The notes beneath the pieces were generated by a model that ran no database searches, was not told where the DNA came from, and saw only the letters and a list, made by a program, of their open reading frames with translations. A stretch of DNA of 64,000 nucleotides from Phymorhynchus buccinoides (taxonomy: Eukaryota; Mollusca; Gastropoda; Neogastropoda; Raphitomidae), in contig CM065703.1 of NCBI GenBank assembly GCA_017654935.2, forward strand, positions 37,835,278 to 37,899,277, given 5' to 3'. Position numbers and translations under genes: made by a program. This document shows, in pieces, positions 6,301 to 54,900 of the stretch; the first letter of the stretch is position 1, and every line of letters starts with the position of its first letter.

Positions 6301-7837
6301 TGGGGGTGTTACCATATTCAGGGTTCATACGCGTCAGGGAAAACTGGAAAAGTCGGGGAATTTAGACAAATGTTTTCCAGTCACTTAAAACTCATGGAAT
6401 ATAAAATTTCTGCTCAAAGTCAGGGAACAGTCAGGGAATTTGATCATATACACATCAAAAAGATAATCAGCGCTTAAAAATATCATGGGTTGAAAAATTA
6501 GAGAGATCAAAAAAATAAAAAAATTTAAAAATGCTTGTCGGTGATCTTTGCGATTTGTTATGTATACCGGTAAGTTGTTTTTGTTTGCCATTTACACTGT
6601 CTGTGTGGTACACGGTGACTGGAAAACGAGTTTGGGGTCAGGGAATTTGATCATGAACTTGCTGTGCGAACCCTGCATATTTTACGGACTACAAGGCGCA
6701 CCTGATTATAAGGCGCATCCCCCAAATTCTACAATATTTAGATTTTGTTTTTGTATTATCTTACTAATTTTTTAGTCATATTATAAGGCTCAGAGGTCTT
6801 TGGATGGGAAAAAAGGTATCGCCTTATAGTCCGTAAAATACGGTATATTAGAGGGAAAAAAAAGTGCGCCTTATATTCCCCAAATACGGTATTTTTCTTT
6901 CAGTTTTAAGTTCCATCATAATAGACAATTTTTGAAAAAAACCTAGGGGAGAGCACTTCGTGAAAATTAGAATTGTTTACCTCCATTACTCGGTCAGATA
7001 ACATTGCAACAATGGTGTCGAAGCTTAAGGTAGAGTAGCTCCCCCTGTTTGACCGATTGAATTAGGCAAGATCACTCCCACACACCATGAAATTACTCCC
7101 CTTAATTATTTCCGAGCAATTCCTGTTATGCCAATGTTCACCTCTGTGTGTGTGTGTGCAGTGTCCATGTGGTTTTCGGTCACGTGCTGAGCGGTCAGGA
7201 TGTGGTGAAGAAAATCGAGCAGCTGCCCACGGACTCTCGCGGCCGGCCAGAGGTGGAGGTGAAGGTTGCCAACTGCGGGGAGCTGGTGCTGCTCAAGAAA
7301 GGAAGAAGCAAGCGTAAGGAGAGAGAGAGAGAGAGAGACAAAGAGAGAGAGAGTGAGGGAGATAGAAAGAGAGAGAGAGAGAGAGAGGTGAGGTGAAGGT
7401 TGCCAACTGCGGAGAGCTGGTGCTGCTCAAGAAGGGAAGAAGCAAACGTAAGGAGAGACAAAGAGAGAGAGAGACAGAGGGAGAGTCCGGAGAGAGAGGT
7501 GGAGGTGAAGATTGTCAACTGCGGAGAGCTGGTGCTGCTCAAGAAAGGAAGAAGCAAACGTAAGGAGAGAGAGAGAGAGAGTGAGGGAGAGAGAGACGGA
7601 GGGAGAGTCCGGAAAGAGAGAGAGAGAGGTGTAGGTGAAGATTGCATACTGCGGAGAGCTGGTGCTGCTCAAGAAAGGAAGAAGCAAATGTAAGGAAAGA
7701 GAGAGAGAGGGAGAGAGAGAGGAGGAAGAGAGAGAAAGAGGTGGAGGTGAAGATTGCCAACTGCGGAGAGCTGGTGCTGCTCAAGAAAGGAAAAAGAAAA
7801 AGTAAGGCTGTGGGTGATGAGAGAGAGAGAAGACACA

Positions 7838-7882
<45 letters not shown>

Positions 7883-9839
7883 GCAGAAAGACACACAGAT
7901 CGACAGACAGTCAGTCGGAGAGAAAGCGACAAAAGCTTAGCTTTGAAATAGAGAACAAGAGAGAGAGAAACATGCACAAACAAGCAGAGGCACAAACATG
8001 AAGTGTGTATGTGTGAGAGTGCGCACTTGCACGCATAGATGTGCAAACCCTGTTGTCTGAAACAAACGCATAAACAAAGCAGGATGATGAAGAATTTAGA
8101 TAAGCTGCTGTGTGTGTGTGTGGCTGAGTTTTAACATTTTCTAATGAAGTAAGGTTCACATGTGTCAGTATGTTGGTTCCAGATAAAAAGAAAGTCCCCG
8201 TGCCATCGGAATCCTCTTCGTCTAGTTCTGATTCTGAATCTGATTCGGCGGAGGAGGAGAAGAAGAAGAAGAAACACAAGAAGAAGAAGAAGAAGCACAA
8301 GAAGAAAGACTCCAAGAAGAAGAAGAAGAACAAGGACAAGGACAAGGAGAAAGACAAGGAGAACAGACGGAAGAAAGAGCCGTCGGAAGAAGGAGAGATC
8401 GAAGAGTAAGTTTATGACCCAAGGTGCTAGCTACGAAACACTACTTCCCCTCTTCATATTGAATCTGCCACACAGATTGAACAGCATGTTGGATGTGAAG
8501 TGGGGAGGTGTTTTGTTTGCTGTGTTCATTGTTGTATGCTGTATGTTTGATGAAGGCGTATTTGCCCTGGTTGACATTAGACTCTCGCCTCTTTTTCATT
8601 CCTTTTTTTTGTTCTGCAGGAATCTCATCTCTTTACTAATGTGCTGTTTGTTCCCTGGTTTTGTCAGCAGTGGGGAGATAGAGAAGGTACCCACAGTGTT
8701 TGTGGAGAACCTTGTGGAATGTTGACTTCTCCCTATGTTGTGTCAGCAGTGGGGAGATAGAGAAGGAGAAGGTTCACACAGTGTTTGTGGAGATCCTTGT
8801 GGAATGTTGACTTCTTCTCCCTATGTTGTGTCAGCAGTGGGGAGATAGAGAAGGAGAAGGTTCACACGGTGTTTGTGGAGATCCTTGTGGAATGTTGACT
8901 TCTTCTCCCTATGTTGTGTCAGCAGTGGGGAGGTAGAGAAGGAGAAGGTTTCCACAGTGTTTGCGGAGATCCTTGTGGTATGTTAACCTGTTCTCTCTAT
9001 GTTGTGTCAGCAGTGGGGAGCCAGAGAAGAAGAAGGTACCCACGGTGTTTGTGGAGATCCTTGTGGTATGTTAACCTGTTCTCTCTATGTTGTGTCAGCA
9101 GTGGGGAGCCAGAGAAGAAGAAGGTACCCACGGTGTTTGTGGAGATCCTTGTGGTATGTTAACCTGTTCTCTCTATGTTGTGTCAGCAGTGGGGAGCCAG
9201 AGAAGAAGAAGGTACCCACGGTGTTTGTGGAGATCCTTGTGGTATGTTAACCTGTTCTCTCTATGTTGTGTCAGCAGTGGGGAGCCAGAGAAGGAGAAGG
9301 TACCCACGGTGTTTGTGGAGATCCTTGTGGTATGTTAACCTGTTCTCTCTATGTTGTGTCAGCAGTGGGGAGCCAGAGAAGGAGAAGGTACCCACGGTGT
9401 TTGTGGAGATCCTTGTGGTATGTTAACCTGTTCTCTCTATGTTGTGTCAGCAGTGGGGAGCCAGAGAAGGAGAAGGTACCCACGGTGTTTGCAGAGATCC
9501 GGCCCGACGAGATCCCGGACGTGCCGTTCCAGCAGTTCTTGTTCCGCGGCAAGAAACAGGAGGAGGAGGAGGAGGGGGTCACTGCCGCCGGAGATGCCAA
9601 GTAAGACTTCTTTAGGTTAGGTACATTATAGTCACAGAGGCGTCTCTGAAATTCGGGTTGCTCCCACCTGGAGAGCGCGTCGCAGCCAGAGGCACGCCAC
9701 CCAATTTTTTTTTTAAAATGTGCATGCGATTTTTGTGTGACTGATGAGGAAGGAAGGAAGGGAGGGGGGTAAATTTTGACCAAATGACAACTTTTTCGTT
9801 GCCACTGGGTTTAACATGTGCTAAGTGCATGAGCACACG

Positions 9840-9870
<31 letters not shown>

Positions 9871-12800
9871 TCCACGTTCAGACCGCAAGGCCTAGTGCGA
9901 AGTGAGAGGAAAAATCCCCTGTACCCAGGTTGAAAGTGACAACCAAAAAGTAATGCTTCTTGTTTATGCTAAACATGTGATGATAATCCTCTTGAACAAA
10001 GTGTTTGCATTCTTTCTGACAAAAGATAAAAAAACAGAGAAATTTGCACACACCTGTCCCTGTTAAATAAGATGCTGCTCATTGTTATGTTATTGTTGTT
10101 TTGTTTTTCTGAATAGGCTGTGGCCAGCATCTAATGTTTTGTCACTATAAATACATAATCATTAACATTCTACTGTTAGTTAACTTCTTTTTTTCCCCAG
10201 CTGAATAACCCTATATATGTACCCCACCTAAGGATAGGGTTTGGGAGGGAGGGATAGCTTAGAAGATAATGTAGTATTCATGAGTGTATCTGCATGGTAC
10301 TGATTGGGGGGGGGGGGGGGTGGGGGGGGGTTCACTGTGCATACGTTTTTGCTTTTCTTGGGGGGAGCCTAAACTTTGATGGTTTATAATTCTATGTACC
10401 TTTGCCCATTTATACTTTTACCCTTTTTTTTGTACACAATTCATAATCATGACTTACCCTGTGCTCACCCCTGGTTTATTGTTGGTGTTATCAATTATTG
10501 GTGACAGTTATGATAGAGATGGAATTACTATTGTAGTCATAATTTTTATTATGACTATTATGTCACTGTCTGTGTATGTATCATTTTTGTATGTGTGTGT
10601 GTCTTTGTTTTGTTTTCGTGAAATTTGTAAAATGGAAAACAAATTTCAATAAAAAACAAATTTAAAAAAAGCAAGTTTCATGGCAGATAAGAGAAGGAAA
10701 CGACTATGGTTTTTTGTTGCAGGGAAACTGAGCGAGAGAGACGTCGGTCGTCCCAAGATAATCGCCGAGAGAGAAACGTGCGAACCCGTGTGATGTACTC
10801 ATCTACGGGGAGACGCATCAAAGGCCGGGGAAGTATTGTGAGTGGAATGAAAAATGAATAACTGCAGGATTTCACAAAATCTCCGGAAAATTTTAAAATA
10901 AAGTGGTGGGTTAGGGTAATCCCAAACATTAAACAACAACAAAACTTAACACACTCAGGACGAATGAGCCAGATCCGGCTCATGGCTCGCCCAACCGTTT
11001 AGGACGAATGGCCCGGATCCGGCTCATAAGAGTTTTCTGGCGTGTAACCAGCTTTCCGGTGCGACGTCATAGCCTATTTTCAGTTTGCTTTGACCTTGCC
11101 TCTCTTGAAATCAACCAATCATTGCAGACTTTACATTCAGGTTTGGTTGTAGAGGGGGGTCAAAGATCGGAATGTGAAATTTTCCTTCTTTCTATGTGTT
11201 AGCTGTTTTCGTCAATAGGAGACAAACGACGAAGGTATGGAATCTGATATTTTACAATCGTTTAGTGCATGGCATTAGTAATGTTATCTGAAAATATCAG
11301 TCCGTAACTTTTCATAACTTTTTTGTGGTGATGGGTTTTTGAACCTAGTCGAATGGCTCGTCCTAAGCGGTTGTAAGGGGAAGCAACTGGCCAGTGCCGA
11401 GTGAGTTAATCTTCTGTCGAAGAAGAATAGAGTAACCCCTCACCCTTCTTCCTTCTCATCGTTGCTCTAATTTCAAGACCAACACTGCAGGTGTCTGTAG
11501 TTCTCTGGCCTGGTTTTATTTTTGTTGTTGCTTAGTGTTTTGGATTTCCCCAACCCACCACTTTATTTTAAAATTTTCCTGAGACATTGTGAGTGGACCG
11601 AAATGTTTTCGAAAAGGTCATTTTGCTGACGGTAAAGAAAGAGTCACGGACTGGGAGGTCACGGGTTCGAATCCCATCAGTGGCGAGGTTTTTTTTCGGT
11701 CCTGGACCGACTCCTACCCAGAGTGAGTGGTTATGGGCTCAATGGGATGACTGAAACCACACAGTCGAGCTTCGTCCGCTTAACTGGATGCGATTCTGAC
11801 TGAGAGTGTTCCTCTAATTTCAAGACCAACACTGCAGGTGTCTGTAGTTTTCGGGCCTGGTTTGCTGATGGTAAAGAAAGAGTGATAAAACTAGTTCACA
11901 AATTGGTGGTTTATGGCATCAGTAAACAAGTAACCATTTCGATAGACATAAGAAGAAATATCAACAGTTTTTAAGTAGTTATATTGAAAAACAGTTGTAA
12001 TAATGTCAACAATTAAAGACTACCATTTTTTTTAGGACTATAATAATAAAGCGATACTATTTCCCCAGAGTGATAAAAATTCTGCTTAACGTCCTCCGGT
12101 CTGGAACAGACACATATGGGACATTAGTAGATATAAAGATGGTGGGAACGATCCTGGAGGCAATGACTGGAGGCAGTGCAACACCAGGAAACTCCCAAAT
12201 TTTTGACAATACAAATGTACTATTATGCGGTGACTCCCCAGACTGAGACCCCTGTGCCTTATAATGTGACTGATAAAATATTAAGAAAATATAATAACAA
12301 AATCTGAACTTTATGTAAAATTTTGGGGGCGCACCTTATAATAAGGTGCGCCTTATAGTCCGAAAGATAAAAATATGAATATGAATTCTACTGTCTGCCT
12401 ACCGTACATCTTTTCTAAATTTGGCAACACTGTCTGAATAATGTCAGAACTTGGCTGTTGTACTTTTTTTTAAAATCAGGCCACTTCTCCTGCCTTTTTT
12501 CAACTGAATCTTCCAAATAACTCTTCTCCCTTGAGCTCCTCCGAAATCGGAATGTGTCGGCTGTACGCATCGTGGAGACCAGTGAAAACTAAAAACCGGA
12601 CACATATGTACCTTACCCATTATGGCCGTATGGCCTGGGAACGTGGACCAGAAGAAGAAATCAGGCCACCTTTTTCATATTTCCATCCCAATTTTTTAAT
12701 TTGTCTTCTGTGTGTCGTTTCTTCTGTGTATGGAATAAAACGCTACCTCCAGAGTTATCATTTTTTGGGGGTTAATTATTTTTAGGGAGAAGCAAAGGGA

Positions 12801-15800: not shown

Positions 15801-17316
15801 TCTTGTTCTCTGACATCTTATCTTTCATATTTATAAAGGATAATCCTTAATATGGTCTTATGAAACGAGTTGGTCAATGCATTTTCTTCAGCTAGGCTAG
15901 ACTTAACACTGTGCTTTCTCAGAATGGCCGATGCTCACCCTACTAACTTTAAATGCTCATCACTTTGGAACTGAAAAAGATACTACAAGAATCGTTCTTA
16001 TATCATTAGAGAGAGAATTGTCTAAATTTTTCAAATGTACACTTTTCTCAGAATGGTCAGCTTGACACTTAATGTCCCTTTCGTGGTGCTGGGTCACATG
16101 TACTTCATGTTAAGCTTGCAGCCTGTGACCGTTATTTGATTAGACTGTTTATCATTTTGGGTACTACAGTGAAAATCACATCAGTCAAAATTGAAGGGAC
16201 TGAAATTTAATTTTGAGATAGCCAGTATTATGAGTTAAAAAGACCTTTTTATAAAGACTAGCGCAACGCCGAGTACCGGTAACGCCTAGTACCGGTAACG
16301 CCAAGTACTGGTAACACTGAGTACAGCAAATTTGAAGCGATTTGGTTAAGAAACGGCGGAGTTATAAGGCCCCGTTTCCCGTTGGCGGTGCTCTGAGAGT
16401 GACGCGCTCTCCCGATTCTCTTTGAATTTGCTGCCAGGCTTCGCCCCTGCCACAGCAAGCCTGACAGCAAATTTGAAGCGATTCGGTTAAACAACGGCGG
16501 AGTTATTTGTGAAAAGGTGAAGCGGCATATATTGCGCGCGTTTCTGCATTGATTCGCTTCGGGTTTGGCACATCGATAGTCACTGTCCTCGGTCATCTAC
16601 CTGCCAAATTCGAAGGCAATCGGTCCAGAAATACCGGAGATACGTGCGCTGAGAGGCCGGCGGATACGCGTTTCGCGCATTTGCCAAACCGTGCAAATAA
16701 CACGGCCGCCTCGGTTGCCATCGCCATCGTTAGGGCTCATAGCAAATTTGAAGCGATTCGGTCGAAAAATGGCAGAGTTATAAGGCCCGTTTTGTGTTTC
16801 AGACAGACAGACACACACACACACACACGGACACTTGGCTTTTTATTATATGATTGTTAAACTAGGACCAGTGATTTTGAGTTATCCATTTTTGAGTTAG
16901 CAGGAATCCACTGTATGTGATGTCGATCATGTTTACTTTAACTTGCAATGTTTTCTTTGCTCTGTTGAAAGATTTCTTTATCATCTGGACAGTTCCAAGA
17001 TGTTCATTTGCTCTGTAGTGCAGTTACTTCTGATAATTGTAATGAGCTGAGCGTGATGATCAAAAGTTTATCTTCAGTTAATAAACTATCGCTGATTTCA
17101 TCATTTGAATCTGTATAGCATACCTGTAGTGTGTGTGTATGCGTCTTTATGTCTGCTTACTTCATGGGATATTAAACGATGCATTTCATATTTAGAGAGG
17201 TGTAGAGTGGCACAGTGGTAACGCGTTCGCCTTGTGTCAAGTAAACCCGAGTTCGAACCTGGGTACAGTGGATTTTTCCTCTCACTTTGCACTAGGCCTT
17301 ACGGTCTGAACGTGGA

Positions 17317-17347
<31 letters not shown>

Positions 17348-20300
17348 CGTGTGCCCGTGCACTTAGCACACGTTAAACCCAGTGGCGACGAAAAAGTTGT
17401 CATTTGGTCAAAATTTACTCCCCCACCCCCCCTTTCCTTCCTCATCAGTTTCAAAAAAATTGCATGCATAAAAAAAATTGGGTGACGCGCCTCTAGCTGA
17501 GACGCGCTCTCCAGGTGGGAGCAACCCGAATTTCACAGAGACGTCTCTGTGACTATAAAGTACCTAATACGTAATATTTAATTTTGCTCTGTAGACACAA
17601 GAAGCACAAGAAGGACTCCAAGCACAGGAAGAAGCACAAGAAGAGCAAATCGAGCAGCGAGGAGGAATCGGACTCTGACAACAAGGATGAGAAGAAGAAA
17701 CGCAGCGGGAAGAAGGACCACAAAGACGACGGCGACGGCAAGAAGAAGAAGAAAGAAAGCAAGAAGAAAAACTACCGCAAGAAAACCACCACCAGCAGCG
17801 ACAACGACGACTCCGAGGACGACGAGAAGGGGAAAGAGAACAAGGAGAAAGACGGGAAAAGAGCGGAGAAGGGCAAAGAGGGGAAGAAGAAGAAAGACGA
17901 CCCCTCCAAGCGCCGCCATCGGTCGGGATCCACAGACGCGAAAAAAGACCGTCCGGAGAGCCGGCGAAAGAGGAGCAAAGAGAGGGAGGGTCGGCGCTTG
18001 GACCCTAGCAGAAGGAACCGGTCGTCCAGCGCGGAGAAGATGAGGAACGGGCTGGTGGTGGTGGTGGGGAAGAAGCCCGGCAGGAGGGAGAGGGACGGCT
18101 CCACCACCGACCAGGAGAAGTCGCGCGAGCGGCGCAAGTCCAGGTCGGCGTCGGACGACAGGGGCAAGGACAGGAAGAGGTCGGCATCCAGGTCAAGGTC
18201 GAAGGAGGCGGTGAGGAAGTGGAGGGGAGACGACTTTCGTCAGCGGCGGTCGGGGTCGAGGGAGCGGAGGAGGTCTGGCTCGAGGTCTGGGGACAGGAGG
18301 CGGCTGGATCGCTCCCCGGACAGGTACAGGTAAGAAGGATTGCATCTTTTTATTTTTTTGTAATTTTTTTTTTTATTGATCTATACGGATATTGGCCACT
18401 GCGAAGAACATGTTTTGCAAGAGTGAATGCCTTTGGTGGGTGGGCGAAGATGGTTGAGTACTGACCAAACAAGGGTATAACTCTCGCCAATTACCCTGTT
18501 TGAGGCCACTTGACTTAATGGCTTCCTTTTGCAAGAGTGAATGCCCTTTTGGATACTGATCAACAAGGGCTTAACTCTTGCCGTCAAGGGCGTTAATAAC
18601 CCTACTTGCAGTGGCCAATAGAGAGGGCTCATGTGTTGCTGTTGTCACTTTTTTTAGTATGGATGCAGTGATGTACCGAGGATCAAAAAGTGATAGGACA
18701 AAGTTTTTAACTGTCCTGAGATGAGATAAATCAACAGGACAATGTCCTGGCTCTTGCAGAAATCAATAAGACAAAGCATGACTGTTAAAAATGTAATCAG
18801 ACGTTTGTCCTGACAGGGGAGAACATAATAGGACATTTCCAATTTTAATAGGTCAATGTCCTATGACCGGGGCCTTGGGAAATCACTGGCTGTACCATTG
18901 GTATTGATATGTGTACACATAGTGGTTAGAGTTGATCGTTTGTTGCTATGCATTTTATGTTGATGGGTTTTGATTCAGTTTTTGCTTAGGTTTGGTTGGG
19001 TTTTCAGCAAGTAAACTGTTTGCTTGGATTCGTTGTTGTTTTTGTTGTCATACCCTGGCTAAAGGATTCGTTGTTGTTGTCGTACCCTGGCTAAAAGATT
19101 CCAGGGATCATCCCAACAGTCGAAGCACTTGAACACTATGGTACAAATGCAGCAGCTAGGAATGATAGCATTACGTGTGTGACCGTTTTTTATTACCCCG
19201 CCACATGGGCAGCCACACTCCCGACTTCGGAGAAGAAGCTTGAAATTCGTTAAATGTGAGTTGTAAAGAAGTTATTGTCAATTGTTGATTGTTTTGTTTT
19301 ATCCTGTTCCTGATTCTTCTTCGTTCGCTCAGACAGTTTCCTGTCATGTGAGCGTAGATACGTCATGCTGCCGTTATGCGCCTAACTAAGAAATAGTGAG
19401 GCCCAGCATGTCCGACTTCGGCTGAAGAAATCTTTGTAAGAATTTGTGGAAAAAAGACAGGAGAACGGACCGGTAATATAGAAAGATAGCAGATGACAGT
19501 AAGCAAAGGGAAAAGGCAGAGTCAAATAATAATAATAATAATAATAGTACATTTATATAGCGCTTTACCTCAGGTGAACCCAAAGCGCTTTACAATCAAT
19601 TATTTCATCAACAAGTAGACAACAAAAACAGCATTCAAGAATAACACAAACCAGCAACAACGCATATACAAAGCAACTCTCTCTCTCAAAGAGAGAGATG
19701 GATTAAAGGAAGTTACAAGCACAGAACTTCCAGAAGATAGGGGAACTATTTGTACGAAAGAACCCCCGGTATCCCCATGGGGCGGGGAAGGGGGGGGGGG
19801 GGAAGCAATGATTGATATAAACAAAAAAGACCCCCCCCCCCCCCGGTATCCCCTCGGGGAGGTGGGTTCCTGATTAAAAATCGATATTTTAACAGGAGAC
19901 GTTCGCGGTCGCCCGATCGTCGCCGGAATCGGTTCTCCCCGATGAGGCGCGGTGGGGGCTTCGGCGGTCGGCGCGGGGCCAGCCCCGCCTTCAGCCGGAG
20001 GAGCCCCCTGCGCTCCACCCCGCCCTTCAAGCGGCGGGAAAACAGGAAGCGCTCCTCGTCCAGCTCCGACGACTCTGACGACGACAAGGACAGGGAGCAG
20101 CGACGCAGGGCCGCCGTCGAGAGGAAAGCCAAGATGTTTGGGTGAGTGAGACGAGTCACTGGGATGCCTGTGTTTACCGTTCAGTACTTTTGTCATTTCA
20201 ATGACATTGCAATTAGCTACAATTTCCTGAATTTGTAATCCTACTCCCCCCGTGGGGATACCGGGGGGTCTTTTGTACAAATAGTTCCCCCACCTTCTGG

Positions 20301-23300: not shown

Positions 23301-26300
23301 ACTAAAAGGCATCAAATCAGGGTCTGTTATGCAAAGACCCTGTTTTCTTCATTTTGGGAGGTGGGGATAGGCCTTACTTTAACCCCTTGACTGCCAGAGG
23401 AAAATAAAAGAAAAAATGATTGAGCAAATCATGCCATGAAAAAGACAACTGATAGAGACAATCTGGAAAAATGGTCTGGGGATATTACTCTCTTGACTGT
23501 GTTAGAACAAAAGCCAGCATGTCAGGGTTATTCCTCTTCATCTGATGACATCATCAGCGATGTCATCAGGTTAGTACGTAATACGTTGGTGGCAGTCAAG
23601 GGGTTAATTATGTCACAGAGGAATCCCCAATATTGCAGAGATTTTTTTCTCTACCCAGGTAAGTTTAATGGAATATTTTTGCTGAAAAATGGCTGGCTGC
23701 GAAAGGGTTTTTCGCAGGAAATATGACTTATGGTAGGAAATATGACTATTATAGTAGGAAATATGATTATTATGGTAGGAAATATGACTATTATAGTAGG
23801 AAATATGATTATTATGGTAGGAAATATGACTATTATAGTAGGAAATATGACTATTATAGTAGGAAATATGACTATTATGGTAGGAAATATGACTATTAAA
23901 GTAGGAAATATGACTATTATAGTAGGAAATATGACTATTATAGTAGGAAATATGACTATTATAGTAGGAAATATGACTATTATAGTAGGAAATATGACTA
24001 TTATAGTAGGAAATATGACTATTATAGTAGGAAATATGACTATTATGGTAGGAAATATGACTATTATAGTAGGAAATATGACTATTATAGTAGGAAATAT
24101 GACTATTATAGTAGGAAATATGACTATTATAGTAGGAAATATGACTATTATAGTAGGAAATATGACTATTATAGTAGGAAATATGACTATTATAGTAGGA
24201 AATATGACTATTAAAGTAGGAAATATGACTATTATAGTAGGAAATATGACTATTATAGTAGGAAATATGACTATTATGTAGGAAATATGACTATTAAAGT
24301 AGGAAATATGACTATTATAGTAGGAAATATGACTATTATAGTAGGAAATATGACTATTATAGTAGGAAATATGACTATTATAGTAGGAAATATGACTATT
24401 AAATTAGGAAATATGACTATTATAGTAGGAAATATGACTATTATAGTAGGAAATATGACTATTATAGTAGGAAATATGACTATTATAGTAGGAAATATGA
24501 CTATTATAGTAGGAAATATGACTATTATAGTAGGAAATATGACTATTAAAGTAGGAAATATGACTATTATAGTAGGAAATATGACTATTATAGTAGGAAA
24601 TATGACTATTATGGTAGGAAATATGACTATTATAGTAGGAAATATGACTATTATGGTAGGAAATATGACTATTAAAGTAGGAAATATGACTATTAAAGTA
24701 GGAAATATGACTGTAATGCATTCACCCATGGTAACTAGAAGAGTTAAACAGATTTTGACAAGCGTTTTGCACCCTGTTCCCCAGGCCCCCAGCTAAAGCC
24801 CTGGCGCCCACAGAAGCGCAGACGGCAGCAGTGAGCCAGTCCCTGCATGACATCAGCCTGCCCCCGGACGGATCCATCCCCGTGCCTGCTGTCTCGGAAA
24901 AACCCAACAAGCCCAGCGAATCGGCGGAGAAAGCCAAGATCATGTACAACCTGGATAAAGGGGACCCCATTCCCACCGCCTCCGTCAAACCTTCCCAGGT
25001 GGGTTTTTTTTGTACTTTTCTTTTCTAGCTTATGTATTTGTTCGATAAGAGTATTTTCAGTGTTCAGTGTTTTTCTTTTTCTTCATGGTAGCAAAAGCGA
25101 TAGTCTTTGCTCTGATCTTCATAAGCAATGTATCAAGCCGTAATTGATTACAGATTGTAGTTGATCCTTAGGAATTGTATCTATGTTGCTACGTGAATAG
25201 GGTGTTAATGCATATTCATTAAGTACTTCTTCTATTTCATCTCTTCTATTTCATCTTTAACTTTTACATAATCCTTATCAGTTAATAAAGAGGAATTAAA
25301 TGTCCATAGACCTGATCTTTTCTGTTCAGTTTTCAGAACGAATGACAAGGTGATTATTGAATGGTCTGTTCTATATCCAGGCAATATGTCTGCATCTATA
25401 GAACTACCCCCCCCCCCCCCCCCCATGTGGATACCGGGGGGTCTTTTGTATAAATAGTTCCCCCACCTTCTGGATGTTCTGTGCTTGTAACTTCCTCTAA
25501 TCTCTGTTTAGAGGTTGTTGAACGTTGGTAAGATACATTCATGAGTGTTTTGTAATAAGTGGTCGAACTTTACGCGGTGACAGTCCTGAGATGACCATAC
25601 CTGTTGACGGGAATATAATGGAAAAAAATATAAAAAAATTATCTCACTCTCTTTGACTCTGCCTTTTTCCCTTTGCTTGCTGTCATCTATTATCTTTCTG
25701 CCTTACTGGTCCATTCTCCTGCCTTTTTTTCATGAAATACTTTCAAACACATTTCCTCTGGCCGAAGTTGGACTTGCTGGGCCTAACTATTTCTTGGTTA
25801 GGCGCATAATGGCAGCATGACGCATCTGCGCTCATAATTGACAGGAAACTGAGCGATCGAAGAAGAAGAATAGAACTACTAAATAAAGTTTCAGAGATAA
25901 GGGAAGAACCTAATCGGATTTGTTGCAGGGGGGGGGGGGGGGGGGGGGGGGGGTCCTTCTCCATGTGTATCTTCTCATTTCTGGATTTAAAACCTCCCCA
26001 GGTTATGGACAAAGGTCGTAGGTCAAGGTCGAGGTCGGGGTCGTCGAAGAGTTCCAGGTCATCCCACAGCTCGCGGTCATCCAGCGGGTCGAAGTCTGCG
26101 TCGCCGGTTCCCCCCGCCGTGTTGAAGAAGAAGAGCCCGTCCACGGAGCCCGATGCTGACCGCAAGAAGGAGAGGAAAGTGGTGGAGGTGAGTTCAGTCC
26201 AGTTTGGATGTAGCTTTGGGTATTTGGTACTTTATAGTAGCCCCTCCACGGAGCCCGATGCTGACAGCAAGAAGGAGAGGAAAGTGGTGGAGGTGAGTTC

Positions 26301-29300
26301 AGTCCAGTTTGGATGTAGCTTTGGGTATTTGGTACTTTATAGTAGCCCCTCCACGGAGCCCGATGCTGACCGCAGGAAGGAGAGGAGAGTGATGGAGGTG
26401 AGTCTGGGGTCCGGTTTGAATGTAGCTTTGGGTATTTGGTACTTTATAGTAGCCCCTCCACGGAGCCCGATGCTGACCGCAGGAAGGAGAGGAGAGTGAT
26501 GGAGGTGAGTCTGGGGTCCAGTTTGAATGTAGCTTTGGGTATTTGGTACTTTATAGTAGCCCCTCCACGGAGCCCGATGCTGACCGCAGGAAGGAGAGGA
26601 GAGTGATGGAGGTGAGTCTGGGGTCCGGTTTGAATGTGGCTTTGGGTATTTGGTACTTTATAGTAGCCCCTCCACGGAACCCGATGCTGACCGCAGGAAG
26701 GAGAGGAGAGTGATGGAGGTGAGTCTGGGGTCCGGTTTGAATGTGGCTTTGGGTATTTGGTACTTTATAGTAGCCCCTCCACGGAGCCCGATGCTGACCG
26801 CAGGAAGGAGAGGAGAGTGATGGAGGTGAGTCTGGGGTCCGGTTTGAATGTGGCTTTGGGTATTTGGTACTTTATAGTAGCCCCTCCACAGAACCCGATG
26901 CTGACCGCAGGAAGGAGAGGAGAGTGATGGAGGTGAGTCTGGGGTCCAGTTTGAATGTGGCTTTGGGTATTTGGTACAGTGGAACCTCCATTATAAGGAA
27001 AAATCCCCTGTGTCACACCCGCACCTCCTGTCCCAAAAAGGATAAACAAATAGCCTTATTCCCAAATATTTTGTTTATGTGAGTGAGGGAGAGGATGAAG
27101 GAAATATACCTGGCTGTTCTCCGTGAATTCTGTGTTTACATGTTCGGATAGACTATAAAACGTAAATTATTCCTGTTACAGACCTGCCTACCCATACGAT
27201 TTTTCTGTATTTTGTACACGATTTTGAGCCCCAGTACGGCAGTACGGTAAAGGGAAAATTAACACGGCAAAAATTTGAACTTAAGGTCTTCTAAGATCGG
27301 TCAAAATCGAGTGTTTTTCGTCATTTCGCATGGCGGTTTAATGTTCTGTAATGTTCCTTCCTTCCGTTTTTGGGTCTCCTTGCAAAATACAGAATTTTGA
27401 GAAAAAGTACGGAATTTTATTTCGTGGAGTACTTAAAGGAAAAAATTGGGGGTAGGCAGGTCTGCTGTTAAAATGTTCATGTAAAATGAAACTGTTGGAA
27501 CAAAGCATATTGCCTTACTATTATTTGAGAAAATGGTCTAAGTATTTTTTACATGATGATGTTTGTTGCCTGTCTGTCGTTTCCAACAATGACTGCCAGA
27601 TAGCAGAGGGGGCTGATGCTATTCCGGCGGGCTGGGCTACAATTTGTTATAGTGGAGAAGCCTTGCGCAGGGTACATCCCCACTCTCTCTGCCAAAGGGA
27701 TTCGAGGATGAGAGTTGGCGTTGGGGAAAGTTCCCAAAGGCCAACCAATCCCACTGGCTGCAGTACTAGATCCAGTGCAAATGCCCCCTTGTTTGAGAGT
27801 CATAGTCTTCCACAAAAGACTAAGCTGTACCATCATAATTCCAAAACTGTTGAAAAGCGCTTAGAGCTAAAGATTAGGCGCTATAAAAGTTGTCTTAATA
27901 AATAAATAAATAAAATCATATATAGTACAACATTGCACTAAACTGTAATGAATGTTCTATATTAGTGCGTTATATGAAAATGTTTTTTTTCCCCAGGAGC
28001 GGATGAAGTGGCAGCCACCCCCAGAACCAGAGGACATGGAAGTGGACGAAGAATCTGTACCCAAACCCCCCATGGCTGTAAGTGAACCCTTCCTAGTCTG
28101 TACCCAAACCCCCCCCCCATGGCTGTAAGTGAACCCTTAGTCTGTACACCCCCCCCCCCATGGCTGTAAGTGAACCCTTCCTAGTCTGTACCCAAACCCC
28201 CCATGGCTGTAAGTGAACCCTTCCTAGTCTGTAACCCCCCCCCCCCATGGCTGTAAGTGAACCCTTCCTAGTCTGTACCCAAACCCCCCATGGCTGTAAG
28301 TGAACCCTTCCTAGTCTGTACCCAAACCCCCCATGGCTGTAAGTGAACCCTTCCTAGTCTGTACCCAAACCCCCCTATAGCTGTAAATGAACCCTTCCTA
28401 GTCTGTACCCAAACCCCCCATGGCTGTAAGTGAACCCTTCCTAATCTGTACCCCCCCCCCCCCCCCCCCCCCCCCCTGTAAGTGAACCCTTAGTCTATAT
28501 CCAAGCCCCCCATGGCTGTAAGTGAACCCTTCCTAGTCTACCCAAACCCCCTTATAGCTGTAAGTGAACCCTTCCTAGTCTGTACCCAAACCCCCCTATA
28601 GCTGTAAATGAACCCTTCCTAGTCTGTACCCAAACCCCCCATGGCTGTAAGTGAACCCTTCCTAGTCTGTATGCAAACCCCCTTATCCTGTAAGTGAACC
28701 CTTCCTAGTCTGTACCCAAACCCCCCATGGCTGTAAGTGAACCCTTCCTAGTCTGTACCCAAACTCCCTTATAGCTGTAAGTGAACCCTTCCTAGTCTGT
28801 ACCCAAACCCCCTTATAGCTGTAAGTGAACCCTTCCTAGTCTGTAACCCCCATGGTAAGTGAACCCTTCCAGGCGTATACCCACTCCCCTTTGTCTGTTG
28901 TTTTCATTATTAAGTTTTTTTAAATTGGTAATGGTATGAAATGGTCAAATATTCAGTATATTAGAATGATTAAAATGCAGCATGTATATGAAACGCACGC
29001 GCATACAAAAATAATTTTGATTTTTGCCTACCATGGGGGCACATTCCAAATTTAATGATTCCTTTTTGTTAAAACTTGACAATGCGGCTCAGCTCTCTGA
29101 CAATTTAGCGTAGTAACTGTCTGGAACTCCTTGCCTGTTCACCTCCGTCACCAATCAGCACTTCCCGCTTTCAAAACCCAACTCAAAACTCATCTGTTTC
29201 AAAGAACTTTCTCTCTGTAACTTTCACTTAAGTTAGATGATGGTCGAATGAATGTGTAGAATGATAGTGTATGTTAGCCCAATTGCGTGTGAATCAGTGA

Positions 29301-34080: not shown

Positions 34081-34111
<31 letters not shown>

Positions 34112-39525: not shown

Positions 39526-39539
39526 AATTCTTCTGCGTT

Positions 39540-40164: not shown

Positions 40165-40372
40165 GTACAAGTTGTGTATGTGTGTAAAAAATTAAGTTTC
40201 TAAAAATCTCATAATCCGGCGACACCGGCTCTACGCAATTTAAAAACCCTGCAATTCAGGACGTCCTCAAAGAAGGAACATCCATGGATTTGCGGTGCAA
40301 GATATTGTAGATGGAAAAAGTGACTATTTTTACACCCTAAAAATGCCCTCCCTACTAACGATGCAGCCGTCG

Positions 40373-43400: not shown

Positions 43401-46400
43401 GACAGACAGACACACACACACGGACGGACACTTGGCTTTTTACTATATGATGCAGGACACCACCTACTAAGCCCTCAACTTTACAACAATAATGTGAAAG
43501 TCAGGGAGCCCGTGTGAGTGAAGACCATTCCTTACGTGAGATACTAAAGTTTTGATGAATACCCTGAGAGTGTAATACAACCATGATACAACCATTCCCG
43601 TGATCCCAGAGAAGGGAGGCAACTCTCATGGGCGCGACACAGTCGCTGCCTTTCGGCTGCACAAAAATGAAATTGTGGAATTGGAATTGAATTATCCCAA
43701 CACATCATTAGGTCATAGACCAGAGTGGTATTTATTTATTTTATTTTTTCCATTACAGTCCCGTCAACAGCTATGGTCATCTTAGGACTGTCACTGCGTA
43801 AAGTTTGACCACTTATTGCAAAACACTCATCAATGTATCTTACCAATGTTCAACAACCTGTAAACAACAAAACATACAGTACAATTCATAGCATGACACC
43901 TCCATCATTGCACCCTATAGCACATAAGTCCACACACGAGTGGTAATGGAAACAGGTCAATATGACAACAGGGCAAGCAGTCAACTCGAGTCAATCTCAA
44001 AGTTTCCCTATTCTCAGATTTTATTAAAATGCAATCCGGGATCTTCACTAAAGACACTACAGTGGAACCTCCCTTACAAGACCTTCAAAAATCATCCAAA
44101 ATGAGGTCTTATAATAAGGGAGTGAGTTGTATAAGGGAGGCTTACAACGAAGGGCAATGTTTCGGATAAGTAGGTCTTAAGTGGGAGGGAGTCTTATAAT
44201 GGGGGGGGGGGGGGTCTTAATAAGGGAGGTTCCACCGTATTGGAAATTTATATTTTAACAAATCAACATTCCGGTTTACATTTGGTTTTACGAGTTCAAC
44301 GCACACACACACACAAAACAAGCAAAAATGTTTTTCCCATTGAAGCGTACCTTGAGTTCACAGGAGAGAGGTCTTACCTCGAGTTCACAGGACAGAGGTC
44401 TTACCTTGAGTTCACAGGACAGAGGTCTTACCTCGAGTTCACAGGACAGAGGTCTTACCTTGAGTTCACAGGACAGAGATCTTACCTTGAGTTCACAGGA
44501 CAAAGGTCTTACCTTCACAGGACAGAGGTCTTGCCTTGAGTTCACAGGACAGAGGTCTTACCCTGAGTTCACAGGACAGAGGTCTTACCTTGAGTTCACA
44601 AGAGAGAGGTCTTACCTTGAGTTCACAGGAGAGAGGTCTTACCTCGAGTTCACAGGAGAGAGGTCTTACCTTGAGTTCACAGGACAGAGGTCTTACCTTG
44701 AGTTCACAGGAGAGAGGTCATACCTTGAGTTCACAGGAGAGAGGTCTTACCTTGAGTTCACAGGAGAGAGGTCTTACCTCGAGTTAACAGGACAGAGGTC
44801 TTACCTTGAGTTCACAGGACAGAGGTCTTACCTCGAGTTCACAGGACAGAGGTCTTACCTCGAGTTCACAGGACAGAGGTCTTACCTTGAGTTCACAGGA
44901 CAGAGGTCTTACCTTGAGTTCACAGGACAGGGGTCTGTAGCGCTGACTGAAGTGGGTGATGATCAGGTGCCTGGCGTTGAGGCTGTTGGCCAGATCTGCT
45001 GTCATCTCTGACCAACGGAAATTGATACAACTATACAGGTATATTGTTGTCTTAAGAAGTCAAATGAAAAGAAAAGAAAACGATTAAACATATCATTCCA
45101 TATATAGACTGCCTTAAAAAAAAAAGCGCAAGGAAAAAAAGAAAAAACGATGTCAAATCCACGTGAAAGTCAATATGCGTACCGTTTCCACAGCCATTCC
45201 AAATGCCAATCCAACACTTATTATCCCGGAAACCATAACCTGCACATGTGCAGTAAGTTTCTCTGTTGAACCGCAAAAATGCGTCAAGTTGACCAAAGTT
45301 TGCCCCTCGAGCCTCGGTATTGAGAACAATTACGCTTTCTGCACCGTGCGCCAACGCAACTTCGAAATTTCTTACGGGGATCTAAAATAACATCACCGTT
45401 CACGAGAAGCTTGTGCCGTGAAACTGAAAGCAGAAGTCTTCAGTTGTGAAAGCGATCGTGATAACATAGTCATGATATAGTGCTTTGTTGCCAAAACGGC
45501 ACAATCAGTGGAGAGGTAACAGGCATGGGAATTGTCCGCCAAAAAAATTGAAATTGTTACTAAATACTTTGTTTTTGTTACTAAATACTTCAATTGGGGG
45601 GCTTTTCAGAGTTTTTTGTCTCTGACAATTCCCATGCCTGGGTAAGCATGCCGTTTTATTCGGCTTGTGCAAGACAATGTTTACTTGTCGGGAGATGAAG
45701 CGTTTGCTTCTTTATATTAAAACAAAATGCTTCAGCTTCAGGGGGCTGCACACACACACACCCCCCCCAACCCCCAACCCCCCCCCCCCCCCCCCCCATA
45801 TTTCCAGTCTTTGAGTCTGGAAAGTTGCCAGCTAGGCTGCTGAAATATTAAGACTAAATACAATGTGAACAATTGATGAACACACAGACACACAATGTGG
45901 ACAAAGGTATTCATTCAAGCATCTCCCCCTGTGGGGATACCAGGGGGTCTTTTGTACAAATAGTTCCCTTACCTTCTGGAGGTTCTGTGCTTGTAACTTC
46001 CTCTAATTCTGTCACTCTCTTTGACTCTGCCTTTTCCCTTCGCCTACTGTCATCTGCTATCTTTCTATCTCACTTAGTCCATTCTCCTGCCTTTTTTCCT
46101 ATACATTTTTACAAAGATGTTCTTCAGCCGAAGTCGGACATGCTGGGCCTAAACTATTTCTTAGTTAGGCGCATAACGGCAGCATGACGCATATACGCTC
46201 ACATGACAGCAAACTGAGCGAACGAAGAAGAAGATTCAAGCATCTTCACAAAGCCATGGACTCGACCTGTTTACCCCAAATCTTTACTGTCAGTAATCCC
46301 AAGCTCTGAAATCAGTAATTTCAGGCATATGTCCGTAATTTTGCTGGCCGAGAAATCCTTTCACCCAAATTTTTCCCTCCCGTCAAACCTTTGTTGAAAG

Positions 46401-49400
46401 AGGGGGGGCAGGGGGGGGCAACTTCCACAACTGCTGAAATTTTGGTTGCGTTGAGGGTGCGGGTGTGGGGGGACCTCGCTTTTTTTTTTGGAGTCTGATC
46501 AGGATCCGAGTCGGAATCATCCGCTTGCGAGTGTTGTTTTTTTCAGCATGCCTTCAGATTGCACTTCGTACCTAGACAAATGGCGGCATGGAGAAATAAA
46601 CCGGAAGTTTTCATTCAAGGGACATCACTCGAAGTGATACCTTTGATAGCAGACGACACAGTAGCGAGTACGGCTCAAACGCCATGCCTTCTTTTGATTT
46701 CTTCTTCTTGTGTTTTTTCGCACTCGTTCAGTGGAAATGCAGATTTTTTTGTTGCTGACCGTAATAGCGTAATCGGAGGTCTCAAAACGTAATAATTACG
46801 GACAAATCCGTAGGGAAAACAGGTCTGATGGACTCACTGGGCGTAGAATGTCCCTTCTCCACACACATGGCGTGACAGGCGTTTTCCAGCGTGGTCTCAT
46901 GGACCAGCAGGTCGGCGTTGCAGGCCACCTTGAGCAGCTGTGAGGAATCGCTGGAGTCTCCCCCTATGGCCACCAGCAAGCCCTTCTGAGGCTGCCCCAC
47001 CACCTCTTCAGGACATATCTGCAACAGTCCACGTACTGTGTGACTGATGAGGAATGAAGGGGAGGGGGGGGGGTGCAAATTTTGACCAAATGACAACTTT
47101 TTCGTTGCCACTGGGTTTAACGTGTGCTAAGTGCATGGTCACACGGGAACTCGGTTTATCGTCTCATCCGAAAGACTCCATGTTCAGACCCGTATAAGGC
47201 CTAGTGCAAAGTGAGAGGAAAAATCCCCTGTACCCAGGTTCAAACTCGGGTTTACTTGACACGAGGCGAACGCGCTACCACTGTGCCACTCTACACCGCT
47301 AGGGAGGTTCCAGTATATTAGGTCAGGGTTATTTTCATGAAACGGAAAGAATGATACCTTGAGATTGAAAGCCAAAAACATGAGAGAGAGGGGGGGTAGC
47401 AAAACTACACTTTTTCCGACATCTTTTTTTTTCAACACTGATTCTTTGGATTTGATGAGTTGGGGCAATATCCAAATCTTCTTCTTCTTCTTCTTCGATC
47501 ACTCAGTCAGTTTGCTGTCAATTATGAGCGCAGATTTGAAAGTGTTTCTTGAAAAAAGGCAGGAGAATGGACCGGTAAGGCAGAGAGGTAGTAGATGACA
47601 GTAAGCAAAGGGAAAAGGAGGAGTCAAAGAGAGTGACAGATTAGAGGAAGTTACAAGCACAGAACTTCCAGAAGATGGGGGAACTATTTATACAAAAGAC
47701 CCGGTCACCGATTCAGGATTGGGAAGATTCACAGAACCTTGAAATGTGTCATTTCAGGACTGAGAGAATGCTTCACCTTCAGTTTCACCCATGTATTACA
47801 ATAGAAATACGGTAATAGAAATAAAATCAATCGGAGTGATCTATTGCCACAGAAATAAAATCAATTGGAGTGATCAATTGCAATAGAAATTAAATCAATC
47901 GGAGTGATCTATTGCCATAGAAATTAAATCAATCGGAGTGATCTATGAAATAAAATCAATCGGAGTGATCTATTGCAACAGAAATATAATCAATCAGGGT
48001 GATCTATTGCCACAGAAATACAATCAATCGGGGTGATCTATTGCCACAGAAATACAATCAATCGGGGTGATCTATTGCCACAGAAATACAATCAATCAGG
48101 GTGATCTATTGCAAGAGAAATACAATCAATCAGGGTGATCTATTGCAAGAGAAGTATAATCAATCAGGGTGATTTATTGCAATAGAAGTATAATCAATCA
48201 GGGTGATCTATTGCAATAGAAGTATAATCAATCAGGGTGATCTATTGCAATAGAAGTATAATCAATCAGGGTGATCTATTGCAATAGAAATATAATCAAT
48301 CGGGGTGATCTATTGCAATAGAAGTATAATCAATCAGGGTGATCTATTTCAAAAGAAATATAATCAATCAGGGTGATCTATTGCAATAGAAGTATAATCA
48401 ATCAGGGTGATCTATTTCAAAAGAAATATAATCAATCAGGGTGATCTATTGCAATAGAAGTATAATCAATCAGGGTGATCTATTGCAATAGAAATATAAT
48501 CAATCAGGGTGATCTATTGCAATAGAAATATAATCAATCAGGGTGATCTATTGCCACAGAAATATAATCAATCAGGGTGATCTATTGCCACAGAAATATA
48601 ATCAATCAGGGTGATCTATTGCCACAGAAATATAATCAATCAGGGTGATCTATTGCCACAGAAATATAATCAATCAGGGTGATCTATTGCCACAGAAATA
48701 TAATCAATCAGGGTGATCTATTGCCACAGAAATATAATCAATCAGGGTGATCTATTGCCACAGAAATATAATCAATCAGGGTGATCTATTGTAACAGAAA
48801 TATAATCAATCAGGGTGATCTATTGCAATAGAAATATAATCAATCAGGGTGATCTATTGCCACAGAAATATAATCAATCAGGGTGATTTATTGCCACAGA
48901 AATATAATCAATCAGGGTGATCTATTGTAACAGAAATATAATCAAGCAGGGTGATCTATTGCAATAGAAATATAATCAATCAGGGTGATCTATTGCCACA
49001 GAAATATAATCAATCAGGGTGATCTATTGCCACAGAAATATAATCAATCAGGGTGATCTATTGCAACAGAAATATAATCAATCAGGGTGATCTATTGCCA
49101 CAGAAATATAATCAATCAGGGTGATCTATTGCCACAGAAATATAATCAATCAGGGTGATCTATTGCAATAGAAATATAATCAATCAGGGTGATCTATTGC
49201 AATAGAAATATAATCAATCAGGGTGATCTATTGCCACAGAAATATAATCAATCAGGGTGATCTATTGCCACAGAAATATAATCAATCAGGGTGATCTATT
49301 GTAACAGAAATATAATCAAGCAGGGTGATCTATTGCAATAGAAATATAATCAATCAGGGTGATCTATTGCCACAGAAATATAATCAATCGGAGTGATCTA

Positions 49401-50129
49401 TGAAATCAAATCAATAGGGGTGATCTATAAAATCAAATCAATCGGAGTGATCTATAAAATAAAATCAATCGGAGTGATCTATAAAATAAAATCAATCGGA
49501 GTGATCTATGAAATAAAATCAATCGGAGTGATCTATGAAATAAAATCAATCGAAGTGATCTATGAAATAAACTCAATCAACAAATCGATGCTGCACGGAC
49601 CTTTCTTCCATCGGGTAAGGTCACAGATTCTCCATCTTTGATGCGTTTGTAGTCAGGGCCCGGAGGTACTCCCAACGATTTGAGCTTCTCCACATCCAGT
49701 CTACCACAAGCAGTGATTAGGGTCACATGCACAGAAAATGCAACGGTTTTCTTTTAAGTTTTATGTTATTATTGTTATGTGTGTGTGTGTCAAGTCAAAA
49801 TGATCTTTATTGACGATAACGTGTGTGTGTGTGCAAGCCTGTTTATTGTGGTCTGCAACGAACACCTTTTACAAGAGTGAATGCCTTTGGTGGGTGGGGG
49901 AAGATGGTTCAGTACTTACCAAACAGGGGGATAACTCTCGCCAATAACCCTATTTGATACCACTAAATGGCTGCCTTTCGCAAGAGTGAATGCCCTTGTC
50001 AGTACTGACCAGCAAGGGCATCACTCTCACTGTCAAGGGCGTTAATAACCCTAGTTGCAGAGGCCTATAAGAGAGAGAGAGAGTGTGTGTGTACTGTAAA
50101 TGTGTGTGTGTGTGCCTGTTTATAATAGA

Positions 50130-50221
<92 letters not shown>

Positions 50222-51918: not shown

Positions 51919-51953
<35 letters not shown>

Positions 51954-54900
51954 TCTGACTTTCTCTCACAGGATTCATACAGATTAATCATATAAAAATT
52001 CACTAACTTTCAAGAACCTTTTTAAGTCGAATTCTGATCGCTTCTCGGCCTTTTGGCTAAAACAGTGATTCAGGAACATAAATTTTTGTTTATACCCTGG
52101 TTGGTTTGTTCAGCCCATCGTACATGGCGAAAGCCGATACGCGACGTTAAACTGAACTTCCAAGAACCTTTTCAAATACCCGTTATCCTATTTTCAAAGA
52201 CCTCTCACAACATGCAATGATGATTGCTTCGATCATGATCATTCAAGTTGCACCGGTGTAACTCGACCAATCGAGGATGTATGATTTTCACAGACCAAAG
52301 CCAATTTTCAAGGACTTTCAAAGACTTGAAAATGGCACTCCATTTCTCAAAGACTTTCAAAGACTGCGAACCCTGTCTCATGCTATTTGTGATCAAGCCA
52401 ATTGAATGAACCCGCTTTTACGAAGGCATCTATGTGTGACTAATAAACTGATCTGCAAAAACAATACTGTAGTAGAAGAAAGAAAAGGAAAAGGCAGAGC
52501 CAAAGAAGATACCAGGGGGGTAGAGATAGATTGGAGAACTTCCAGAAAGCGGAGGAACTATTTCCACTGAAAGATATTCCCCTCCCTCCGCCCCAGTATC
52601 CCCACCAGGGGGCTCATCAAATGCAAATCAGTCGTCCGATCACCAAGCTCTCCGACCCTCAATTTACTATGGGCCCTGGTCAGATCACCAAGCTCTCTGA
52701 TCCTCACTTTACTATGGGCCCGTTAATGACAAACCAGTCATCCAATCACCAAGCTCTCTCTCACTTTACTATGGGCCTGTTAATGACAAACCAGTGGTCA
52801 GCTCACCAAGCTCTCTGACCCTCACTGTACTATGGGCTGTCAATGACAAACCAGTGGTCTGCTCACCAAGCTCTCTGACCCTCACTGTACTATGGGCCCG
52901 TTAATGACAAACCAGTGGTCTGCTCACCAAGCTCTCTGACCCTCACTGTACTATGGGCCCGTTAATGACAAACCAGTGGTCAGCTCACCAAGCTCTCTGA
53001 CCCTCACTGTACTATGGGCTGTCAATGACAAACCAGTGGTCTGCTCACCAAGCTCTCTGACCCTCACTGTACTATGGGCCTGTTAATGACAAACCAGTGG
53101 TCTGCTCACCAAGCTCTCTGACCCTCACTGTACTATGGGCCCGTTAATGACAAACCAGTGGTCAGCTCACCAAGCTCTCTGACCCTCACTGTACTATGGG
53201 CCTGTTAATGACAAACCAGTGGTCTGCTCACCAAGCTCTCTGACCCTCACTGTACTATGGGCTGTCAATGACAAACCAGTGGTCTGCTCACCAAGCTCTC
53301 TGACCCTCACTGTACTATGGGCTGTCAATGACAAACCAGTGGTCTGCTCACCAAGCTCTCTGACCCTCACTGTACTATGGGCCTGTTAATGACAAACCAG
53401 TGGTCTGCTCACCAAGCTCTCTGACCCTCACTGTACTATGGGCCCATTAATGACAAACCAGTGGTCAGCTCACCAAGCTCTCTGACCCTCACTGTACTAT
53501 GGGCTGTCAATGACAAACCAGTGGTCTGCTCACCAAGCTCTCTGACCCTCACTGTACTATGGGCCTGTTAATGACAAACCAGTGGTCAGCTCACCAAGCT
53601 CTCTGACCCTCACTGTACTATGGGCCCATTAATGACAAACCAGTGGTTAGCTCACCAAGCTCTCTGACCCTCACTGTACTATGGGCCCATTAATGACAAA
53701 CCAGTGGTCAGCTCACCAAGCTCTCTCACTTTACTATGAGCCTGTTCATGACAAAACAGTGGTCCACTCACCAAGTCCACACCTGTTGGTCATCACAGGT
53801 GATCACCGATCCGTGCACTTCGTTTGGGTGTGCCCCAGCGTCCGGCGACTGGTCAATGGGCCATTTCTAAAAACAAACAAACGTACAAAAAAGAAAAGTG
53901 GTATCCGTGGGGATACAGGGGGGGGGTCTTCTGCATAAATAGTTTACCCACCTTCTGGAAGTTCTGTGGTTGTAACTTCCTCTAATCGGTCACTCTCTTT
54001 GACTCTGCCTTTTCCCTTTGCTCACTGTCATCTACTATCTTTGTGCCTTACTGGTCCATTCTCCTGCCTTTTTTCAAGAACCACTTTCAAAAAGATTTCC
54101 TCCAGCCGAAGTCGGACATGCTGGGCCTAATTATTTCTTAGTTAGGCGCAAAACGGCAGCATGACGCATCTGTGCTCATAATTGACAGGAAACTGTCTGA
54201 GCGATCGAAGAAGAAGAAAAAGAAGAAAATGAATCACTAAAGCAGTAGACAATAGGTATATAGGTGTAACTCACTTTTAGACATACGGGATAAATGTTTA
54301 TGTGTTCTATTGTGTGACTTAGAGCATGTATATGTGACCTAGCACCACAAAATTAAGAGAAAATTATACAATAGAAAACTTCAGACAACTCTCTTTCTAT
54401 TGATACAAGAACCATACTTGTATCTTTTTCCGTTCCCGAGTTATGAGCATTTAAATTAGGTAGGGTGAGTGTTGTCCATTTTGAGAAAACACAGTCTGAA
54501 GTCTAGCCTAGCTGTAGAAAATGCATTAACCTACTCATTTTAAAACATTTATAAGACCATTTAGAGACCATAGTAAAGAGTATCCTTTATAAATATGAAA
54601 TATAATATGTTAGAGAACACAAAAACACCCATAACTCAAAATTGACAAAAAATGGGATTCTTGACTTTGCAAGCCTGTTGTGAGAAACTAGCCCAGCGAC
54701 TTAATGTCCCTTTCGTGGTGCTGGGTCATATATTATAAGTTTACATGCATTATCTAACATTTGAAGACTACAGAAAGCAAAAAAAAAGGAAAATGGAAAA
54801 TGAAAAAATATAAGCTTGAAATATAGAGTCAGTGCAAGTGTTGCCCCCCCCCCCCCCCCCCCCCCCCACTCCAACCATACCCCTTCACCCCAGTTTTAGG

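Follow-up and report, generated by a model that had tools for sequence, protein, structure and literature searches.

Genes of the window and arrays across their splice junctions

The window analysed here, a stretch of 64,000 nucleotides (G000:C24:37835278-37899277) in the 2,119,302,774-base assembly that was searched, carries two readable genes. The + strand encodes an NKTR/PPIG-type cyclophilin and the − strand ELAC1, and in both genes minisatellite arrays lie over exon–intron junctions and repeat them. Fifteen cyclophilin exons fall within the window and ELAC1 is represented by exons B to H, the 5′ parts of both genes being outside. Splice signals and tblastn alignment of mollusc proteins served to place the exons, though for six cyclophilin exons (d, g, h, m, n, o) open frame and order carried more weight than alignment; the two models together comprise 43 junctions. 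When exon-proximal sites only are used, the cyclophilin gene forms a single 1458-codon frame across its 15 exons, and ELAC1 is open to its stop, with joins that match those of the related protein P0001. The predicted ELAC1 protein is 77% identical to a protein from a 1230-base contig, 72% to that of Babylonia areolata, 71% to Nucella lapillus and 70% to Littorina saxatilis, and identity is lower for Pomacea (60%) and for five Branchiostoma entries (41–48%). This likeness of the predicted protein places the animal with the caenogastropod snails, not with amphioxus. All results below come from one assembly of one genome and cover the two window genes and nine contigs with CCT genes.

Based on Tandem Repeats Finder and unit decomposition, six arrays each enclose exactly one of the 43 modelled junctions and repeat that junction, giving 84 junction copies, 83 of them with an intact GT/AG core. 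The initial annotation had listed the same six arrays, all of which are present, and its copy counts (5, 10, 8, about 19, about 21 and about 19) were correct within one (5, 10, 8, 19, 22 and 20 for exons c, e, m, n, G and C). Its statement that the arrays start exactly at the exon boundary has to be corrected; they reach 65, 47, 54, 24, 24 and 4 nt into the exon, respectively.

Four arrays are located in the cyclophilin gene, on the + strand (a slash marks the junction in the motifs below). The array over the exon c donor (7249..7807) holds 5 copies at a spacing of 112–134 bp, with the exonic part at its start followed by GA-rich intron; exon c (7162..7313) was placed with Batillaria P0121 by tblastn and by its open frame, which points to the first copy, CAAGC/GTAAGG, as the working donor. 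The array over the exon e acceptor (8681..9500) has an 88 bp unit (spacing 79–88 bp) and its exonic part at the end. It provides 10 acceptor copies, including one directly before 8681, and the last of them, CAGCAG/TGGGGAG, is the presumed working acceptor of exon e (9454..9600). This acceptor is a tandem NAGNAG (CAGCAG, 9448-9460), which occurs in all 10 copies found. The exon m donor is repeated at 26134..26977 in 8 copies of 105–107 bp, every one reading GAG/GTGAGT, and the first appears to serve exon m (26002..26187), whose join VE/ER(M)KWQPPP is similar to those of P0123 and P0125. Finally, the array over the exon n donor (28054..28849) comprises 19 copies of about 43 bp (spacing mostly 40–47 bp), 17 of which keep GTAAGT; the first, GCT/GTAAGT, is the likely working donor of exon n (27997..28077).

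The other two arrays belong to ELAC1 and lie on the − strand. That over the exon G donor (44348..44936) contains 22 copies of a 27 bp unit, 21 of them with GT, and exon G (44913..45007) presumably uses the first copy, CTCAAG/GTAAGA, giving a join (...CELK/EGE...) as in P0001 and P0004. The array at the exon C donor (52677..53775) consists of 20 donor copies at 61 bp (mostly 60–61 bp). The donor CTTG/GTGAGT probably works for exon C (53772..53866), and the downstream copies are weaker (GTGAGC in 16, GTGATC in 2 and GTGATT in 1). Since just 4 exonic bases are repeated, this array is nearly intronic, starting at the donor, and it is the weakest case of the six.

The units of the six arrays are mutually unrelated and do not form one family, in agreement with the initial annotation: blastn gave zero cross matches at E 0.1. 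The exon e unit, the only one of the six searched against the whole genome, had 10 matches among the best-scoring candidates, all within its own array, and in 25 random stretches of the genome the six units matched only through the GA-rich portion of c and through 19 bp of m. A dispersed repeat family at splice sites (introner-like) was considered and rejected, since the units are unrelated and the exon e unit, among the best-scoring candidates, matched only its own array. The copy at the cluster edge of a mirage would escape homogenisation; compared by eye, edge copies differ from inner ones in arrays c, m and C, as they do in n at its far end. Donor strength was expressed as a position-weight score built from the window's own 21 donors; copies no more than 0.5 bit below the first donor, itself counted, make up 5/5 in c, 8/8 in m, 17/19 in n, 12/22 in G and 1/20 in C.

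Two more arrays are intronic and approach a junction without including it. One, at 47817..49578 (− strand, 34/27 bp), leaves 22 bp between its end and the donor of ELAC1 exon E; the other, at 23716..24712 (+ strand, 21 bp, 47.6 copies), stops 72 bp short of the exon i acceptor. A third junction-free high-copy array lies past the ELAC1 stop, outside the gene models. The exon E donor itself (49601, AAG/GTCCGT) is the sole one of the 21 donors with C at +3 and is required for the match to relatives. Upstream of ELAC1 exon B, a reverse-transcriptase-bearing element (Pfam RVT_1, E 2.7e-20) occupies 56859-62226 on the − strand and presumably sits in an intron; a frame overlapping it has the look of a DIRS-type recombinase but gave no match in the Pfam scan. 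The cyclophilin domain includes a 30-nt micro-exon (3289-3318, TTNPAPHLD) flanked by introns of about 2.9 and 3.8 kb.

Junction duplications in CCT genes and their frequency

To obtain an independent sample of the same genome, a whole-genome profile search for the TCP1/CCT family (PF00118) was performed, which gave 54 matches. From the best 22 of them by E-value, 18 CCT exons on nine contigs were taken with 500 bp on each side; two long one-frame matches, regarded as near intronless (C20:23344585 and C9:58714377), and two regarded as near-duplicates of kept rows (C7:35956050 and C27:30632907) were left out. Match ends guided the placing of the junctions by eye, followed by a check for AG/GT, and since the L039 donor was not placeable, 35 of the 36 were used.

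Tandem Repeats Finder revealed arrays across both exon ends in L035 (69 bp x 7.6 and 114 bp x 2.9) and L042 (108 bp x 5.0 and 119 bp x 4.9), and across an exon edge in L043 (140 bp x 2.5), L044 (139 bp x 2.6), L045 (39 bp x 13.2) and L048 (78 bp x 5.0). In L039, L046, L049 and L051 arrays are present and stop short of the junction, and L034, L036, L037, L041, L047 and L050 have no array of period at least 10 according to the same program. By the stricter, junction-centred test, a copy was found nearby at 11 of the 35 CCT junctions; with ±5 bp allowed, the number rises to 14 (9 of 18 acceptors and 5 of 17 donors), distributed over seven of the nine contigs. Some of these are diverged two-copy duplications, such as those at the L041 donor and the L038 acceptor, where 8 of 40 positions are mismatched in each case. 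All 41 extra CCT copies are on the intron side and keep the AG/GT core, a result that is partly built in because the copies were found by their likeness to the junction. Among the profile matches, the pairs at G000:C27:30848853-30851693 and G000:C3552:19065-20645 have equal open-frame lengths (956 and 1012 aa), a hint that the open frame runs on without a stop from one exon to the next.

In the genes sampled, splice junctions are thus often spanned by a tandem duplication. The CCT count of 11/35 exceeds its own weighted baseline of 0.088 (P 1.3e-4) and a stiffer one of 0.064 (P 7e-6). In the window, six of nine high-copy arrays, each collapsed to one unit, span a junction against 0.40 expected (P 3e-7); with placement matched for G+C content and exon interiors excluded, 0.71 are expected (P 3.5e-6).

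The duplicated fraction was then expressed by distance from the junction. The exon-proximal copy was taken as the representative of each duplicated stretch, because copy-number weighting hides that copy. On the exon side of CCT genes, the fraction is 0.027 in the interior, 0.249 at 20–60 bp and 0.348 at 5–20 bp inside the exon; it is 0.306 at the junction, and 0.213, 0.175, 0.064 and 0.036 in the intron at 6–20, 20–60, 60–150 and 150–500 bp. The window has 0.016 in exon interiors, 0.053 and 0.092 nearing the junction, 0.092 at it, and 0.116, 0.113, 0.025 and 0.028 at the same intron distances, with 0.028 up to 1500 bp and 0.008 beyond. We also simulated 400 loci with CCT geometry, observed unit sizes and copy numbers, uniform initiation and purging of exon-internal events. 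The simulated fraction is 0.022–0.040 in all bins outside exon interiors, and 29 of 800 junctions (3.6%) are duplicated, against which the CCT count has P 2.6e-8. Since the simulated profile is flat, the junction peak is no product of the estimator, nor does it arise when uniform duplication passes through a selective sieve. On average over 14 arrays (some lengths were read by eye), 0.55 of the unit is exonic; therefore, there is no fixed breakpoint at the junction, which sits anywhere in the unit, and the duplicated piece simply has a tendency to cover it.

Several observations weigh against such an excess and its interpretation. With full-length arrays placed at random on the window, 3.1 are expected to span a junction and the result is weak (P 0.044), and none of the 11 window arrays with fewer than four copies spans a junction. 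The 40-base centred test, which misses the exon C donor and hence counts 5 rather than 6 of 43 window junctions, shows no excess over the 13% of random positions when unweighted; the P value is only 0.005 against the window's own copy-number-weighted baseline of 2.65%, and just 0.019 against the simulated null. The CCT count shows little excess over the 25% of random positions when array length is uncorrected. The collapsed-unit P values of the window overstate the case because the finding was chosen for standing out, and junctions of one exon or gene are non-independent, which makes all P values too small. In addition, the working role of the proximal copy is inferred from open frames, and the DNA folding of the six units is unremarkable, with nothing pointing to structure as a cause. 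We judged full-length and unweighted random placement to be the wrong nulls, because one array fills many positions, and used collapsed or weighted counts and the simulation instead.

Random 10-kb stretches of the genome (25 stretches; 175,569 non-N of 250,000 bases) contain 14 arrays with a period of at least 20 and at least 4 copies, i.e., 8.0 per 100 kb versus 9 in the 64 kb of the window. They are unusable for the junction test because exons are not recognisable there, and two open reading frames beside their arrays gave no match when scanned with Pfam. An array at L025:131-935 (G000:C2) has an 84-bp unit repeated 9.6 times, equal to 28 in-frame residues, and by reading appears to be an exon-internal coding repeat, with a GTGAGT donor-like site about 265 bp further. 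Dispersed repeats are common to the window (9612-9935, 17198-17582, 16272-16822, 12067-12216 and others) and the random stretches, with 124 megablast matches of at least 80 bp, which have 77–97% identity among the 40 matches listed.

Origin of the arrays

We consider it probable that the arrays are minisatellites of the type described as "mirages" in amphioxus, that they arose by tandem duplication over junctions, and that they are commoner there than elsewhere in the sampled genes. The process would begin with tandem duplication of about 27–140 bp of genomic DNA across an exon–intron junction. The array units contain exon and intron in genomic order and lie on the intron side of a splice site that is sufficient for an open frame; because exon and intron are contiguous in them, they must stem from DNA or unspliced RNA and not from spliced mRNA. 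The duplicate would then expand and homogenise as a minisatellite, possibly by slippage or unequal crossing-over, with growth on the intron side in all cases observed. The copy touching the exon body would stay a working splice site, kept by selection on the protein as the open frames suggest, and the remaining copies would be complete but surplus donors or acceptors within the intron. As the cause, we favour exon-edge DNA that is prone to tandem duplication or expansion; the survivors would be duplications reaching over the junction, since exon-internal ones harm the protein.

The excess could also reflect selection for redundant splice sites, in which near copies are kept for surer splicing or more U1/U2 recruitment. 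This is unlikely in our estimation. In its favour, all 41 extra CCT copies and all but one of the 84 window copies have intact cores, and the exon-nearest c donor is weak (3.1 bits) with stronger copies downstream (up to 8.1). However, detection by junction likeness itself favours intact cores, and although conservation in the five arrays computed is higher at the splice motif than over the remaining unit, 10 to 48% of 9-base stretches equal it. Moreover, none of the 19 other copies at exon C comes within 0.5 bit of the first donor, and of the 69 distal donors that the five donor arrays contain, 38 do not share the phase of their first donor. Of the two causes offered in the initial annotation, a process favouring duplication across splice sites would fit the excess in the window and CCT genes; the unexceptional motif conservation does not demonstrate selection for redundant sites. 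If, instead, duplication were uniform along genes and exon-internal events were simply purged, exon interiors would be poor in duplications, and they are (0.016 and 0.027 in the window and CCT genes); the exon-internal window repeats with a period of at least 20 have units divisible by three (33, 36, 24 and 27), and the L025 repeat reads as coding. Exon g, however, holds a weak row of 17-bp units (17849-17889), a length not divisible by three, and the simulated 3.6% falls below both the CCT and the window counts, the latter at the modest P value given above. We regard a sieve alone as improbable.

Slightly more improbable still, in our view, is that the copies are used as alternative donors, acceptors or mini-exons, giving extended isoforms or new introns. 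The sequence does offer such opportunities: ELAC1 exon G donors 2–5 would add one to four in-frame 9-residue blocks before a stop in unit 6, array e units bear a GTATGT donor-like site after acceptor copies 4–9, and the n and m units contain AG sites. New introns were created by boundary repeats in human and by a duplication in potato, according to the available parts of the reports (PMC2812944 and PMC4974935), yet the accessible text on amphioxus describes RT-PCR (reverse transcription polymerase chain reaction) results that pointed to regular splicing, and none of six related ELAC1 proteins has repeat-derived residues at the joins. The predicted Nucella lapillus protein (P0004) lacks about 7 residues at the exon C/D join, beside the window's donor array. 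The frames are explained without a new intron, as an old intron grown longer. Recurrent collapse or expansion errors of the assembly at exon ends are very improbable: N makes up about 30% of the random stretches (250 kb in all) and the nine CCT contigs include five small ones (25–87 kb), but copies within an array differ by substitutions and indels, and junction duplications are also found on the long contigs C6, C7, C24, C27 and C33.

Returning to tandem duplication at junctions, its excess may be caused by duplication-prone exon edges or, less probably, by a gain from spare sites. A broader version, which we put forward tentatively and rate a little below an even chance, is that a process of the snail lineage aimed at exon edges duplicates junctions genome-wide, independently of amphioxus. 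Between a tenth and a third of junctions would then have complete splice sites to spare, on which intron gain, exon extension and alternative splicing could draw at any time. Should that share of junctions indeed be affected in an animal genome of 2 Gb, the choice of the spliceosome among near-identical adjacent sites becomes testable, as do exon edges as mutational hot spots and a route from tandem duplication to new introns. Gene prediction and short-read RNA mapping would then need checks at exon ends in such genomes.

Comparison with known systems

The initial annotation knew of no standard name for such arrays; in amphioxus, however, they are already called "mirages". According to the portions of the reports available (PMC3087553, PMC3902484), these are tandem repeats over exon–intron boundaries of Adh3, the globins BflGb6 and BflGb9, troponin C and PGBD5. 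They affect 5′ or 3′ exon ends, have units of 10–160 bp depending on the gene, and include many copies with AG/GT signals. The name was given in Adh, RT-PCR suggested regular splicing, the globin authors proposed a route to new introns, and length polymorphism and somatic instability were reported. The snail arrays are similar in that their units span the boundary, in the six window arrays and in L035, L042, L043, L044, L045 and L048, that donors and acceptors are both affected (five donors and one acceptor in the window), and that the copies carry AG/GT signals. Unlike the amphioxus work, the host is a mollusc, the arrays are known from the sequence of one assembly, and their excess over the distal intron was measured in exons not chosen for it.

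Internal tandem repeats at exon–intron boundaries are also described in human segmental duplications, as minisatellites with an average unit of 30 bp that altered introns (PMC2812944, in the text available). The snail minisatellites likewise overlap exon–intron boundaries, whereas the human repeats, as far as that text goes, vary among recent paralogs and have transcript-supported new introns, the snail arrays being read from DNA. In potato, a duplication crossing an intron–exon boundary produced a new intron (PMC4974935, in the part available); in contrast to this single intron-making event, the snail case consists mostly of arrays, and its frames fit a lengthened old intron.

No report of mirages in molluscs was found in the open-licence literature among the matches listed. 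The pattern, previously known mainly from a few amphioxus genes, offers a way into how splice sites and introns multiply. What is new here is a second phylum for mirages and a frequency of affected junctions in genes that were not chosen for them.

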